Assembly (NCBI GenBank): GCA_009781005.1
Contig: WQYX01000046.1
Location: 1-33,457 of the forward strand
DNA from: Polyangiaceae bacterium
Lineage (GTDB): Bacteria; Myxococcota_A; Polyangia; Polyangiales; Polyangiaceae
Length of the DNA stretch: 33,457 nt
Reading direction: 5' to 3'
The notes under the pieces were generated by a model. That model saw only the letters and a program-made list of their open reading frames with translations, searched no databases and had not been told where the DNA came from. The translations under genes were made by a program, and so were the position numbers. This document shows, in pieces, positions 12,601 through 18,174 of the stretch. Every line of letters starts with the position of its first letter. Position 1 is the stretch's first letter.

Positions 12601-14609
12601 GCAGCTTCGTAGTCGCTTACCAGCGTGACGAGGCGCGGCCTCTGCTCGGCCGCCGGAACGCCGGCAGCGATCCAACGTTCGACGAGCGTGGCCCGAAGGC
12701 GCGGTGCGTTCGCGATCGTCGCGATACTCGAGACCGCTTCACGGAGGATCGCATGGCGCGGCCCGAGAACATCGAGAGCCCGCGTGGCCATCTCGACGGC
12801 GCGTGACGGATCACGCACGGCGAGCGCTGCGAGCACGGGCGCGATGCGTTCGGCCGCGGCACGAGCGGGCTCGGGCTGCGCGATGAACCACGAGAGCACG
12901 CTCGTCATCGCTTCCGCGTCGTCTGCTCTGCTCGTGCGATCGAGCAAGAGATCGACGACGCTGGCGTCGCCGGGGCGAAGCGCAACGAGCCGGCGCGTCC
13001 ACGCGAGCGCCGTCGTTGCATCATCCATCCGCGCATAAACCTGCGCGAGCCGCGCGCACGCGTCCGAAGTCGGACCCGCCGCAACGACGGCGTGCTCGAT
13101 GGCCGTCGCCGCCACGCGTCCTTCCGTCGTCGACACGAGGAGCGACATCACGCGAAGCGCACGAGCATCTTCGGGGTTCGCCCGCATCGCCTGCTCGGCC
13201 ACGGCTCGCGCCGACGCTCCGTCGCCGACTCGCGAAAGCTCCTCGGCCGCGACGGCGCCGAGCACCGCCGCGAACGCACAACTCGGGGCATAGGCCGCCA
13301 TCGCGCGAGCACGCGTCGCGCGATCGCCCGCAGTCGCCGCCGCCATCCATGCAACGGAGTTCGCCCACGGCGTGCCTGCGATCTCCGATGCCATCTCACC
13401 GCCTCCGGCATCGCCGAGCGTCGCACGGATCAACGCTTCGACGGTCCAGGCCTCGCCGTCCTTTCCAGTAAGCCCGCGAAGAAGAGCCACGTTCTCTTCG
13501 TTGGTCGCATCCCGAGCCACGGCATGCGCATAAGCACGGGCCGCTCGATCGGGTGCAGCAAGCCGGCCCGCATACAAGCGTCCGATGTCCGCCCACGCGC
13601 GCGCCGTCCCTCGATCAGGCTGCAATTCGGCGCGGATCTCGAGCCGCAACGCCAAGAGTTCGAGCGCTCCCGCCTTCAGCAGAAGATCGTCGAGGACGTC
13701 CGCGTCCGATCCCGTGAAGACGGCGTCGAGCCCGTCATCGAGAGCCGCGCCGAGTGCCACGGAAAAATCCGAGCGCGCCAGCGCAGCACCGCGTCGCTCG
13801 CGGTGCACCTGCGCAGCCTGTTCGGTGCTGCCCCTCGAGGAGAGCGCGAACGCATGCCGGCGAAGAATTTCGTCGGCGGCGGCTGCCCGCCCGCGTGACA
13901 CGAATGCGCTCGAAAGTGCTACGGCCGCGTGCGTGCTCGATGGATCGATCTCGAACGCGCGCAGAAGATCCTCGAGCTCCGCTTCGGCGTCGCCAGCAGC
14001 TGCCCGTCTGCGCGCCGCACAGAGATAGGCGTCTGCTGCACGCGGCGCGATCGACTCGCTCTCGTCCTCGGGCAGCGGCGCGATCGCGCCGAGCAGTTCG
14101 AGCGGCAACGCATCCGACTCATCGAGCGCCGCGGCCTCCGTCAGCGCACGATGCGCGCCTTCCATGTCACCTGCACGCGCATGCAAGACGCCGATGCGAA
14201 CGAGCAGCGACGCGGCTTCTTTCGGAGTGCGTTCATCGACGAGCGGATGGAGCTCGGAAGCGGCGCCGGCTGGATCGCCGAGTCTTTCGAGCCACCGAGC
14301 AAGCACGTGTCGCCACTTGGGATCGTCGCGGCCTGCCAGCGCGCCGCGCAAAAGCTCGATCGCGACGTCGAGCTCCGTGTCACGGGCGGCAAGCTTGCTC
14401 GCAAGTCGAAGCGCCGAACTTCTCTCGTCGTCGACGTCATTGAACTCGCGCGCGAGATCGCTGCGCGCATGAAGGCTCGCCTCTTCGGCGACGGCGCCCG
14501 TCCTGCGCGCAAGCGGCGGCGCCGAGCCTAGTACGGATCTGCGGCCCCGCGGCGGTCGCGATGAGCGTCTCGCGGTCTGCTCGCCACCTGCGTTCGCCAT
14601 CGCCATCAC
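9603..14609 (-). CDS. giant TPR/HEAT-like repeat protein (1668 aa)
   Basis: A very long, Ala/Arg/Glu/Leu-rich helical protein with no signal peptide or membrane segment, so presumably a cytoplasmic scaffold. After about 45 basic, disordered N-terminal residues, helix pairs run almost to residue 1390, many with the TPR spacing and A-x4-A pattern. The last 270 residues differ: they mix strands and helices (SLALRWELGAALASVTPDNALLLGLPE, then FDLVVEHARQSGRRVGMFLTGDFGHAARA). They look like one folded domain that I cannot name. GTG at 14609 overlaps the TGA of the sppA-like gene (GTGATG), with ATG codons at 14606 and 14600 as alternatives. The next gene begins one base after its stop. Base use is very GC-rich, like its neighbours. 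It probably organises the products of the coupled genes around it, but this is inferred from position only. Confidence 0.87.
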   Translation of the reverse strand: MMAMANAGGEQTARRSSRPPRGRRSVLGSAPPLARRTGAVAEEASLHARSDLAREFNDVDDERSSALRLASKLAARDTELDVAIELLRGALAGRDDPKWRHVLARWLERLGDPAGAASELHPLVDERTPKEAASLLVRIGVLHARAGDMEGAHRALTEAAALDESDALPLELLGAIAPLPEDESESIAPRAADAYLCAARRRAAAGDAEAELEDLLRAFEIDPSSTHAAVALSSAFVSRGRAAAADEILRRHAFALSSRGSTEQAAQVHRERRGAALARSDFSVALGAALDDGLDAVFTGSDADVLDDLLLKAGALELLALRLEIRAELQPDRGTARAWADIGRLYAGRLAAPDRAARAYAHAVARDATNEENVALLRGLTGKDGEAWTVEALIRATLGDAGGGEMASEIAGTPWANSVAWMAAATAGDRATRARAMAAYAPSCAFAAVLGAVAAEELSRVGDGASARAVAEQAMRANPEDARALRVMSLLVSTTEGRVAATAIEHAVVAAGPTSDACARLAQVYARMDDATTALAWTRRLVALRPGDASVVDLLLDRTSRADDAEAMTSVLSWFIAQPEPARAAAERIAPVLAALAVRDPSRAVEMATRALDVLGPRHAILREAVSSIATIANAPRLRATLVERWIAAGVPAAEQRPRLVTLVSDYEAAGDIAGELSACVRAARAGADLTLLRDGIEKLAFCNKTPDMELAWLEVCAELAVAQGRTDDAIASLRELGAALWDMAGDRSRALATWLRAAALDSSIGYRTLRMDLSAFADAEYAANCLAELVDRESDPGRSGILAHEASCAALEIGELSRALSLAQMALERHPGRVEAIETAEKACSGLGSAPEMSALYDQVARGARGRFGRRAAHHRAARYFESASIPMLALKHAAQAFIALPSESTTLRLLARTAARAQKGSMAARTVEHVADFSRSRAVRARWLVLAAELAAHDLEGNHQRFELLIKAMIAAPSTATIAGLASVTRDLIALGPEDAHALALRLERASDSLVTKLEGPEGARIAVAFAKSALDVFGDAPWAWRAIAHASDVDADIDEYADLIGFAPALAQAEDAARALARVMAMCDKPYANVGHALLRLAGTIAKALGDDAARARAFVMAVEKESDSDEIISEADEAVLAYSDPSLSERFSKSVDASRRSAALRAIAKKLTEAGELEAAAIKLERVHDIAPNDAEADVAIEALLVSRANHEELAAHLKRRAERLVGEANAETRRAVRLRRVAVLEQRLDRLEDAAAELEQVLVESPGHASALHWLADLHERIGQPAVHKLADERLSGGESETAEKLLFEALGHGSLAAADTLDAMFASDPSRIASLVKVRRHAVDLDPGNLDRLALLRDAAMGDQNVNFARAIDHVIRAFDGKTGPLPPPPLEAQSVQPGMLAMLTHRPRECASEAFGVVWENAPSLFVKTLADYTVSGVERVVPGPDLALSRLYEIALRLLDVPRFALFHREPEAPHDPPRLTVMLCSSPSALLVANAREDSLALRWELGAALASVTPDNALLLGLPETEARALFDVLMTAFGPPGRSIDRDRAKLTQSLWSALPPRAQRRLIELLASDGDDRAPFDLVVEHARQSGRRVGMFLTGDFGHAARAVITEQRGNVEDLSRPGGLARLCAAMPALADLFRLAVRPEYADARWRVSTSIV

Positions 14610-16588
14610 CGAAGCGTAAGGGCAAACGGGATGGCCACGACGGATCGCTCACCTTCGGCGAGCGGCGCCATGCTCGTGGCGAACGGAACGAGCTCGGGTG
14701 CGGTGCGCTCCAGGAGCGTGATGGGGGACAGTGAGGCCCCGCGAATCCGCTCATCGGCACCGCTCTGCGGATCGAGCATCTCGAGAAGCGTTGGCTTTGC
14801 TTCCACCACGGCCACGCGCGCATCCGGAGGCAGCCCGGCAACCTCACGCGCCTTTGCGAGCGCCGCCGAAAGACCCCCAATCTCGTCGACGAGACCTCGA
14901 TTCTTGCCTTCTTGCCCGCTGAAGATGCGCCCTTCGGCGCTCTCTGCGACCTTGTCGCGCGTGATGGTTCTTCCGCGCGTGCTCCGCCCCTCCGAGACGC
15001 GCGCGAGAAACAATTCGTAGACCGCGGTCATGCTCTCGAGCACGCGCGCGCGCGTGGGATCATCCCAGCGCGTGAGCACCGACTCGTACGATGCGCGCGC
15101 CGCAGCGCCGGGATTCTTCGTGTTCGCGGGGAACGTCTCGGCATGCACGCCGATCTTCTCGAGCGCCTCGCCGGCGCCGATCTTGCCGCCGACCACGCCG
15201 ATCGATCCAACGATGCTCATGGGCTCGGCGAAGATGAAGTCGCCCGCAGACGCGAGGTACATGCCGCCGCTCGCCGCCATGTCACCAATGCTGACGATGA
15301 GCGGCTTCTTCGTTCGCAGCCTCATCAAGGAGTGCCACATCAAGTCGCTTGCGAGAGCGCTGCCTCCGGGTGAGTCGAGGCGAAGGACGACCGCCTTGAC
15401 GTCATCATCCTTTTCGAGGCGCTTCATCGTGCGTTCGAAGTCTTTCTCGATGATGCCCGAACGACCTCCGAGGATCCCGTTGCCGCCCGACGTCATCGCG
15501 ATGGCGCCCGTTGCTCGCACGAGCGCCACGGGCCCCGTCTCGCCACTGTCGCCCACGAGGGCGCGCACGAGATCGTCGAGACCGTCAGTCCTGTCGTCGG
15601 CGCCTCGACCGAAGACGACGTCCTCGCGCACCGCGCCGCTCGTGCTCTTGACCGCCGCGAAAGCGTCGTCCGCGTAGCCAATCTCGTCGATGAGACCGAC
15701 GGCTTTCGCGCGACCCGATCCGTGCGGTCCATCCTCCACGGCATCGGCGATGCCGGACTGCGAACGCCCCTTGGTGATCGTCTCGAGCCACGAACTTCGC
15801 ATGTCGGCGAGCACGCTCGTCAGCGACGCGCGCGCCTCGGGGCTCGGCCCGTCGCGCGTGAGAGGCTCCTCGGCACCTTTGTATTTTCCAACTTGGAGAA
15901 AATCGATCGACAGGTGGAGCTCGTCGGCGAGCAAACGTCGCATGTAGACGACCTGCGCAGCGATGCCCACGGTCTCGAGATCACCGGCGGGCGACAGGTA
16001 GATCGACGAGCAGCCGCGCGCGGCTGCCATGAAGGTCGCATTCGAAAAGCCGTCGCCGTGGCAATAAACTTTTTTCTTGCTGCGTAGCCGCTCGAGGTGC
16101 TCGCCGATCTCCTGCGAGCGCGCCGCTCCGATGTTCGCGCTACCGAATTTGACGAGGACACCAACGTGCTCTTTATCTTTCTGTTCGTCGGCAAGATCAT
16201 CGAGCGTCCGCAAAAGCTCGTCGAAGCTGCGTTTGCGCCCGGTGACACCGAAGGGGCTCTGAGACTCTTGCTCCGGCACGCCGCCGGCGAGATCGACGAC
16301 TGCGACGGCCGGCCCCGAAGTTGGTTTGGGCGAAGACGATCGCCCCTGACGAGGACGCCCCTCGCAACCAAGTGCCAGACTCACGAGCAGCACGACGGCT
16401 GTCGAACACGCTCTAAGAGCGAGTTCGCCAGCCGTCGCGAGCGAATCGAGGCTAGGGCGGAGCGCGAGGAGCCCGCGTAAACGTACTTGTCGTACGTGCG
16501 CAGGCACCGCAGCGCCCAACCGACGAATCGATTTCGCGCAGCAGGCTGCCCTACACGCTCTAAGGTGCATCCTTCGCGCGTATGTCAT
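14606..16588 (-). CDS. SppA-like signal peptide peptidase, lipoprotein form
   Basis: A 660-residue serine protease of the SppA (S49) family, which cleaves remnant signal peptides and other membrane-near peptides using a Ser-Lys dyad. Both halves of the two-domain 67K-type fold are present. The likely catalytic lysine is Lys237 in GKYKGAEEPLT and the nucleophile is Ser440 in GDMAASGGMYLAS. SPGGSALASDL near 406-416 is also typical. It has no N-terminal membrane anchor but a lipobox, LALGC, at Cys75. The ATG at 16588 overlaps the TGA of the upstream gene (ATGA). The distance from start to lipobox is abnormally long. Codons 13-61 are almost entirely repeat element, and residues LRAC occur on both sides. 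Without the insert the N-terminus would be a normal 25-residue lipoprotein signal. GTG at 16507 is an alternative start inside the element. Confidence 0.9.
   Translation of the reverse strand: MTYARRMHLRACRAACCAKSIRRLGAAVPAHVRQVRLRGLLALRPSLDSLATAGELALRACSTAVVLLVSLALGCEGRPRQGRSSSPKPTSGPAVAVVDLAGGVPEQESQSPFGVTGRKRSFDELLRTLDDLADEQKDKEHVGVLVKFGSANIGAARSQEIGEHLERLRSKKKVYCHGDGFSNATFMAAARGCSSIYLSPAGDLETVGIAAQVVYMRRLLADELHLSIDFLQVGKYKGAEEPLTRDGPSPEARASLTSVLADMRSSWLETITKGRSQSGIADAVEDGPHGSGRAKAVGLIDEIGYADDAFAAVKSTSGAVREDVVFGRGADDRTDGLDDLVRALVGDSGETGPVALVRATGAIAMTSGGNGILGGRSGIIEKDFERTMKRLEKDDDVKAVVLRLDSPGGSALASDLMWHSLMRLRTKKPLIVSIGDMAASGGMYLASAGDFIFAEPMSIVGSIGVVGGKIGAGEALEKIGVHAETFPANTKNPGAAARASYESVLTRWDDPTRARVLESMTAVYELFLARVSEGRSTRGRTITRDKVAESAEGRIFSGQEGKNRGLVDEIGGLSAALAKAREVAGLPPDARVAVVEAKPTLLEMLDPQSGADERIRGASLSPITLLERTAPELVPFATSMAPLAEGERSVVAIPFALTLR
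16406..16417. repeat. 12-bp direct repeat, target duplication (left)
   Basis: ACACGCTCTAAG, identical to 16553-16564. It flanks the palindromic repeat element on the left. Together with the insert the copied length is 147 bp, or 49 codons, so the sppA-like frame is kept. A 12-bp perfect duplication next to a known repeat is best read as a target site duplication. Confidence 0.75.
16418..16552. mobile_element. 135-bp palindromic repeat element, copy A
   Basis: A non-coding, MITE-like element with an imperfect palindromic layout. The centre is ACGTAC, a TTGTC loop and GTACGT at 16481-16497. The core from about 16430 to 16535 matches, in reverse orientation, the element at 29268-29415. The two share the GAGGAGCCCGCGTAAACGTAC block and the GTACGTGCGCAGGCACCGCAG block. 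The outer arms are more diverged than in the other copy. It lies inside the 5' part of the sppA-like gene and is flanked by a 12-bp direct repeat. It codes for no transposase, so any movement would have relied on an enzyme elsewhere. Confidence 0.8.
16553..16564. repeat. 12-bp direct repeat, target duplication (right)
   Basis: ACACGCTCTAAG, the partner of 16406-16417. In the sppA-like frame it encodes Leu9-Arg10-Ala11-Cys12, and the left copy encodes the same four residues at 58-61. Confidence 0.75.
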
Positions 16589-18174
16589 CCGCCACTCCGG
16601 TTGCCGCTATCGCTCGAAGCCGCGCGCTCGGTAAAGGCACGCAGAAGCGCAAACAGCGGATGAATTCGATGAAGTTTCGCAAGCTGTTCGAGCTCGACGC
16701 GCGCTCCCGGAACGTCGCCCGATCGCGCGAGAGCATAGATGAGCGCCGCGCGCGCACGCCCGGGCCCCACTTCAGCGCCGGCTGCAACGCGTAAGCGCTC
16801 GATGATGGTCGCCCACGGCGGTTCTTGCTCAGCGAGGCCGAGTGCCGCGAGGACGTACGCGTCTTCGGGATCGTTCGCGCGCAGCGAAAACTTCGCAGCG
16901 AGCGCGCGTGCTCCGTCTCGATCGCCCGAGGCCCGGAGCGCGTCGATCTTCGTCGACAGAGCCACGTGATTGTCTGGCAGAACCTGCAACGCTTGCTCGG
17001 CAGCCCCGCGCGATGCGGCTGCGAGCTCGTTGAGATCGTCCTGCGTGATGCGACGCTCGTCTGCGGCGTCTTCGGGTAAGAGACGCACCTTGAGCCAGGC
17101 CACGTCTGCACGCACGGCCGCAAGGCGCGCAACATCGACGAGCGCGCGCGGATCGTTGTCGGACAGAGCCGTGGCCTTGTCGAAGTTCTCCTTCGCGCGC
17201 TCGATGTCGCCGTCGACGAACGCCTTTTCACCTTGCTCGAGCAGCCCAACGACCTTCGAGTCGACGCTTGCAACAGGCGCGCTTGCAACGGGCGCGCTCG
17301 CAACAGTCGCCGCCTTGATGCGCGCGCCCACGTGTTCGGGTACCCCCACGGCAACGAGCAACGCGATGACGAGGATCACCGCGGCGGTGACAACGAGCCC
17401 TGCCGACCAACGACGCCCAACCGGTCGCACGGAGCTCGGCACGCCCGAATCAGTTGGAGCCCCGTCTGTGCGCTCGCGTTGCTCGCCGCTCTGCGCTGCC
17501 TTCCCCTCTGAAGGCACGGACGGGGAAGGCCCAGAATGCGCTTCCGCCGCCTCGGTCCGGGATTCAGGGACAGGCCCTGACTCGCAGCTCAAATCCACAT
17601 CGACCGCGGCGTACTCCGACGACGCCGGAGGCGACGGCTCGGGGGCAGACTTCGTGGTCACCTCATCGACGATGACGACCGATGCCTCTACGGCACCGGA
17701 GCGAGCTTCGCCGGGTCCAGTCCCCACGAGCGTTGTGACGAGGGATCGCAGTGTCCGTGGTGGCCGATTCGGGAGCACCGCCGGAGGCGCCGGGAAGTCC
17801 GGAAAAGTATCGAGCTGCGACCGCGTAGGCCCGAGTCCTGGAGCTGTCGTCGTCTTCTTGCTTCGCTCGAAGAACGACAGAAGCTCCGGGATCTGATCGA
17901 TCGGTTTTGACGGCGAACCTCCGCGCGAGAGCGTGTCGGTCGCTTTGATTCGTTGCGCCTGGATCGCCTTCTGTAGTTCCCGAAGCGACGTGAAGACGAG
18001 CGTCTTACCGCCGCGTGTTTGAACCCTCCAAAGGTCTCCGCCGCTCTCTGCCTTGCCGCGGGCAATCCGGAACTTGTGACCGCAGCTCGTACACTTCACC
18101 GTTGTGCCGCGCCAACTGACGAGCGCGTCGTCAAACTCGTACTCGGTGTTACAGCGCTCGCACCTGACGTCCAT
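16585..18174 (-). CDS. zinc-ribbon, transmembrane, TPR protein
   Basis: A 529-residue membrane protein with four parts. Residues 1-36 are an MJ0042-type zinc ribbon with Cys5, Cys8, Cys28 and Cys31. Residues 48-102 resemble a GYF_2-like domain (DLWRVQTRGGKTLVF through IDQIPELLSFF). A long Pro/Ser/Glu-rich linker follows to about 255. A single membrane helix lies at about 258-278 (LVVTAAVILVIALLVAVGV). The rest is TPR-like and predicted to be periplasmic. A zinc ribbon plus GYF-like domain ahead of a membrane helix recalls the myxobacterial gliding protein GltJ, but similarity to it cannot be shown here and the TPR part differs. A short ASAPV repeat sits just after the helix. The start is the ATG at 18174. 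The stop overlaps the start of the sppA-like gene (ATGA), so the pair is probably coupled. Confidence 0.87.
   Translation of the reverse strand: MDVRCERCNTEYEFDDALVSWRGTTVKCTSCGHKFRIARGKAESGGDLWRVQTRGGKTLVFTSLRELQKAIQAQRIKATDTLSRGGSPSKPIDQIPELLSFFERSKKTTTAPGLGPTRSQLDTFPDFPAPPAVLPNRPPRTLRSLVTTLVGTGPGEARSGAVEASVVIVDEVTTKSAPEPSPPASSEYAAVDVDLSCESGPVPESRTEAAEAHSGPSPSVPSEGKAAQSGEQRERTDGAPTDSGVPSSVRPVGRRWSAGLVVTAAVILVIALLVAVGVPEHVGARIKAATVASAPVASAPVASVDSKVVGLLEQGEKAFVDGDIERAKENFDKATALSDNDPRALVDVARLAAVRADVAWLKVRLLPEDAADERRITQDDLNELAAASRGAAEQALQVLPDNHVALSTKIDALRASGDRDGARALAAKFSLRANDPEDAYVLAALGLAEQEPPWATIIERLRVAAGAEVGPGRARAALIYALARSGDVPGARVELEQLAKLHRIHPLFALLRAFTERAASSDSGNRSGG

Follow-up and report, generated by a model that had tools for sequence, protein, structure and literature searches.

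An IS5-type MITE-like element in the signal peptide of an SppA-like lipoprotein, and at other leaders, in a Polyangiaceae genome

The sppA locus and its leader

The window analysed here, a stretch of 33,457 nucleotides, is contig C46 of a Polyangiaceae draft assembly of 4.77 Mb in 199 contigs. It carries on the minus strand (positions 14606 to 16588) a gene for an SppA-like lipoprotein (peptidase S49), which begins with ATG and encodes 660 amino acids, including the insert described below. The product matched Pfam PF01343 with 165 bits and the NCBIfam model SppA_dom with 182 bits, above the cut-off, while its score against SppA_67K, 238 bits, was below the cut-off of that model. The catalytic Lys and Ser of E. 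coli SppA (3bez) were matched in the alignment, and the protein has the characters of an S49 peptidase. The native start codon (16586 to 16588, minus strand) overlaps the stop codon of the upstream gene in an ATGA, and the same overlap was found in the orthologues L062, L063 and L064. The upstream gene (16585 to 18174, minus strand) encodes a zinc-ribbon/TPR protein (Pfam Zn_ribbon_4) and is a conserved neighbour of sppA, with a homologue at 24 of 29 loci.

An in-frame insert of 147 bp lies between the sppA start codon and the hydrophobic core of the signal peptide, so that the leader reads MTYARRMHL, followed by 49 additional codons and then by RACSTAVVLLVSLALGC. In lipoprotein leaders the cysteine is usually found at about residues 15-35. 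The lipobox cysteine codon of sppA, TGC (16364 to 16366, minus strand), specifies residue 75 with the insert, outside this range, and residue 26 without it, and the h-region and lipobox are intact. The sequence-only reading from which this study started had already noted the 49 codons added in frame and the shift of the cysteine to residue 75, and both hold, the frame being open over all 660 codons. Its statement that excision of the 147 bp gives MTYARRMHLRACSTAVVLLVSLALGC with the cysteine at position 26 is also correct, but the joined leader is itself partly element-derived (RACSTAV), as described below.

The comparison of orthologues proposed in that reading was carried out, and no insert was found in sppA at any of the 29 loci outside the host genome that were compared. 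Complete leaders from the same genus and family were about 20-30 residues long and ended in a ..GC(E/D)GRPR-like motif. Because the ATG at 16588 overlaps the upstream stop codon as in the closest orthologues, the native start is placed upstream of the element.

Boundaries and anatomy of the sppA copy

The inserted element is a MITE-like copy of 144 bp with IS5-type ends (16417 to 16560, plus strand), whose boundaries were defined by the alignment of copies and by a target-site duplication of the form TNA, here TAA at 16414 to 16416 and a matching TAA at 16561 to 16563. The left terminal inverted repeat, GAGCGAGTTCGCCAGCC (16417 to 16433, plus strand), agrees at 13 of 17 positions with the right end, GAGCGTGTAGGGCAGCC (16544 to 16560, given as the minus strand), which belongs to an end type common to many copies. 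Beyond the left TAA lies a 21-nt orphan end of a second, inverted copy, GAGCGTGTTCGACAGCCGTCG on the minus strand (16393 to 16413), which exactly matches another element end type and shares the TNA with the 144-bp copy; about five further copies also have an element end beyond a shared TNA. The orphan end codes for RACSTAV of the sppA signal peptide. As an element end was already beside the insertion site, the site has probably received two or more insertions, and the "ancestral" leader of 26 residues is in part element-derived already, RACSTAV coming from the other copy.

This arrangement accounts for the 12-bp repeat ACACGCTCTAAG, which had been described as flanking a 135-bp element. The repeat is indeed present at 16406-16417 and 16553-16564 and the total of 147 bp stands, but the true unit is a 144-bp element plus a 3-bp TNA (144+3 = 135+12). 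The first 8 of the 12 bp are terminal repeat, which in the left-hand copy is part of the orphan end, and TAA and one G follow; the repeat thus arises because the site already carried the 21-nt end of another copy; a 12-bp target duplication was ruled out, the duplication being 3 bp throughout the family. The description of the element as palindromic was fair, since its RNA is predicted to form a long imperfect hairpin of -76.4 kcal/mol (z -4.4), although the DNA fold is less clear (z -1.3). Such a strong RNA hairpin could lower expression. The sppA copy is near the family consensus, which suggests that the insertion is probably recent.

The element family and its connection with IS5

The element is not confined to one gene, as the sppA copy had 49 matches in its own genome, and the identity of the better matches was mostly 91-97%. 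Pattern searches of the genome for right ends gave 52 + 176 hits and none with a reversed control pattern, from which the copy number is estimated at about 200 (~228 from the right-end counts); the stretches analysed around copies held 208 distinct copies or large fragments. In the alignment of the best copies and of all two-ended copies, the element begins with GAGC and finishes with GCTC, and ends of the GAGC(G/A)(T/A)GT....CAGCC type occur on both sides, i.e., it has the terminal inverted repeats of a MITE, as well as the small size (143-144 bp) and the lack of a transposase gene. Identical TNA triplets flanked 100 of the 122 two-ended copies, with TAA, TTA, TCA and TGA similarly frequent. 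The element is therefore a high-copy MITE-like repeat that inserts at TNA and duplicates it. Most copies add a net length of 146 or 147 bp, and a long form adds 191-194 bp; the latter (L117, L136, L151, L162 and others) is 188-191 bp in size, with ~45 bp extra. The search of the window against Rfam matched no known RNA family.

Several end types exist, and they often differ between the two sides of one copy: the same type was found on both sides in 20 of 81 copies, against 8 expected if pairing were independent. Copies in the series L001-L060 and L104-L243 combined mixed IS5 end types with a core that is nevertheless highly conserved, as if ends had been exchanged between copies or templates. 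Four of the end types agreed with the termini of fragments of IS5-family transposases from this genome (GAGCGTGTTCGACAGCA, GAGCATGTTTACCAGGA, GAGCGTGTTCTACAGGG and GAGCGTGTTTACCAGGA), several of them with TNA at the edge. The transposase, assembled as a composite of two fragments and assigned at the family level, was identified as NCBIfam NF033580 transpos_IS5_3 (162 bits, cut-off 110). No intact autonomous IS was found in the genome, where the transposase pieces lie mostly at contig ends. We infer that IS5-family transposases encoded in this genome probably mobilise the element in trans. The element resembles the IS and MITEs of the IS5 family (IS427/IS1031-like), in which IS1031-type elements recognise three nucleotides (PMC2516522), in its short terminal repeats and short target duplications, and pieces of a matching transposase are present in the genome. 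The Polyangiaceae element differs in that only the ends are common to it and the IS pieces, and in the mixing of end types on one copy.

With about 200 copies and many contigs ending within the element, the sppA locus could conceivably be an assembly chimera, in which unrelated flanks were joined via the 144-bp repeat. However, the two flanks are parts of a single gene and lie in a single conserved neighbourhood, the zinc-ribbon/TPR gene followed by sppA as at the 24 loci mentioned above, which speaks against an assembly join, and the TAA duplication is identical on both sides. We regard a chimera as very improbable.

Position of the copies relative to genes

According to a simple gene finder, which misses N-terminal insertions and scored sppA itself as intergenic, 68 of 80 well-defined copies were intergenic, against 17% expected at random, and the remaining copies were at gene edges (9) or inside genes (3). 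Codon-score windows around the insertions missed even the sppA case; because of this blindness, the gene-call version and an empty-site signal-peptide test were used instead.

Two copies were clearly gene-internal, both of them 147-bp in-frame copies: L009 (C13:36771) lies in an RlmB/TrmH-like methyltransferase, just before the catalytic domain, and L170 (C88:7770) in a TIGR02757 protein. The relatives of both proteins align over the join without an insert. A further in-frame insertion of 147 bp, L224 (C64:16406), lies in a reading frame rich in Pro, Ser and Thr. At L017, L187, L201 and L233 the duplicated TAA falls exactly at the end of a gene, where the duplication may restore the stop codon.

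Signal-peptide insertions and the reading frame

For the empty-site test, the element, of any length, and one TNA were removed and a signal peptide was then sought. The strict rule required an upstream start codon, no later start before the h-region, an n-region of net positive charge, an 11-residue hydrophobic core and downstream coding sequence. The test was devised after the pattern had been seen in a list of reading frames that cross the element, its strict form was fixed after two looser versions had been inspected, and it relies on a small number of cases and on a simple hydropathy criterion. Of the 110 well-defined copies, 6 qualified under the strict rule as splitting a signal peptide between the start and the h-region, compared with 1.85% of random TNA sites (p 0.017). 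All six add a multiple of three, as against 37 of the 110 copies (34%) overall (binomial p 0.0014, Fisher p 0.0011). The first looser rule gave 8 matches with 6 in frame (p 0.021), and a relaxed rule gave 18 with 11 in frame (p 0.013).

Besides sppA, the strict cases are the lipoprotein L002 (MRCSSL, element, RIILLVGFACMLSVGAAC), the HEAT-repeat protein L243, with the element at its GTGA start, L005/L360 (VRTKKSVSVL, element, GLGLVSLSLFVSRAAEA), L165 (MKRLALL, element, FFAMLLVVTNASS) and L226 (MNHL, element, TRIAALFGVLIFAADAKA). Two less clean in-frame cases with imperfect ends, L164 and L194, were recognised by inspection, and the TNA repeats are imperfect in some of these eight signal-peptide cases. 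The signal-peptide cases use different frames of the element and both orientations, so that the peptide sequence of the element itself is unlikely to be selected.

The two out-of-frame matches of the first looser rule, L196 and L346, do not count as interruptions, each having a separate start codon on the downstream side of the element. The out-of-frame looser-rule matches examined either had their native start downstream of the element or were not signal-peptide-like, and L019, L224 near 2370, L241 and L160 were set aside with native starts downstream of the element. The insertions examined included no convincing out-of-frame copy that had an intact native start on its upstream side. A composite insert of 324 bp at the ATGA start of a lipoprotein (L120/L361; C21, around 11766) leaves the frame open and is a doubtful case, as is L140/L362.

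The retention of frame bears on where translation starts. Initiation at the native start, with ribosomes reading through the element, predicts lengths in multiples of three, initiation within or after the element does not, and read-through is thus favoured. Among the options offered by the sequence-only reading for sppA, this frame rule favours the native start with translation through the element, an internal start at the GTG (16507) being possible. If translation began inside or just after the element, e.g., at this GTG, the leader would have been replaced and frame retention would be coincidental. In-frame TTG and GTG codons do occur at element codons 13 and 17 in sppA, L243 and L002. However, the length of the element would then be irrelevant, which does not fit the six strict cases, and in L005 and L226 the element lacks a start codon in the frame that would be required. 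Moreover, a native start on the upstream side of the element agrees with the starts of orthologues for sppA, L243 (orthologue L281, which starts GTG AGA AAG), L005 (L382), L165 (L404) and L194 (L394). Internal initiation is therefore considered unlikely. The pattern argues for n-regions that would be longer by 49 or more residues and translated from the native starts.

The insertion could also be deleterious or neutral noise, with export lost and the open frame reflecting a recent event in a GC-rich, stop-poor element. The sppA copy is near the consensus and so probably recent, its cysteine at residue 75 lies outside the usual range, and at least one frame is open in most of the in-frame copies. 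On the other hand, the frame is kept across several signal-peptide insertions, which are enriched over random TNA sites, the out-of-frame class with an intact native start upstream has no convincing member, and the catalytic residues of SppA align intact. This explanation seems to us quite unlikely.

A probable course of events and comparison with known systems

Read-through of the sppA copy from the native start, with the n-region as a permissive site for such insertions, is in our view the probable explanation. The 144-bp copy inserted after codon 9 of sppA, beside the leftover end of another copy, and added exactly 49 sense codons. Translation would most likely proceed from the native coupled ATG through the element and give a 75-residue lipoprotein leader, in which, as the retention of frame suggests, an extended Arg-rich n-region would be followed by the intact h-region and lipobox. 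The n-region of signal peptides tolerates length, and for this reason the core probably remains recognisable to Sec and to the machinery of lipoprotein processing. Selection would remove most intragenic copies, and those between the start codon and the h-region would persist provided that their length is divisible by three and that they leave an open frame.

A broader reading would take the n-region as a recurrent refuge of the element in this lineage, with about eight exported proteins having functional leaders lengthened by 49 or more residues from the element. Export and lipoprotein processing would then tolerate n-regions as long as 50-60 residues, and element ends would have been used to rebuild parts of the h-region, as in sppA; we give this reading an even chance.

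In-frame MITEs in proteins and one signal peptide made partly of a repeat are already known. The Rickettsia palindromic elements (RPE) are palindromic repeats of about 150 bp found in frame in protein genes (PMC10969869), and a table in PMC2229807 gives no established target-site duplication for them. The likeness to the element studied here, compared by description, lies in palindromic in-frame insertions of ~150 bp. RPE, however, occur in many kinds of conserved proteins, whereas the intragenic survivors in the Polyangiaceae genome are mainly in signal peptides and most copies are intergenic, with TNA duplications and IS5-type ends. In Yersinia, an RU-2/YPAL repeat forms part of the signal peptide of YPO1552 (Delihas 2007, PMC2759123; PMC2229807). 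In that case a putative new exported protein owes its N-terminus to the repeat, while the Polyangiaceae element splits existing conserved signal peptides, repeatedly and with a frame test. In the open-licence papers searched, no account was found of a genome in which MITEs had inserted repeatedly in the stretch from start codon to h-region, and this feature looks new.

The results suggest that export signals are an intragenic place where such parasitic DNA can be tolerated, and they show which parts of a bacterial proteome allow a mobile element to persist within a gene. The limits to stretching of the n-region could be tested on a natural set of matched proteins that either have or lack the 49-residue extension of the leader, and the frame test makes the translation of small repeats in bacterial genes, an old question, directly testable. 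For annotation, proteins whose leaders are lengthened by the element may escape signal predictors that are tuned to short ones.

Relatives of the element in other genomes

The sister genome G009 contains a closely similar element core, mostly 91-96% identical, with end types of its own. Diverged full-length relatives with 67-73% identity were observed in other genera of the family (L096 in G014 and L099 in G034).
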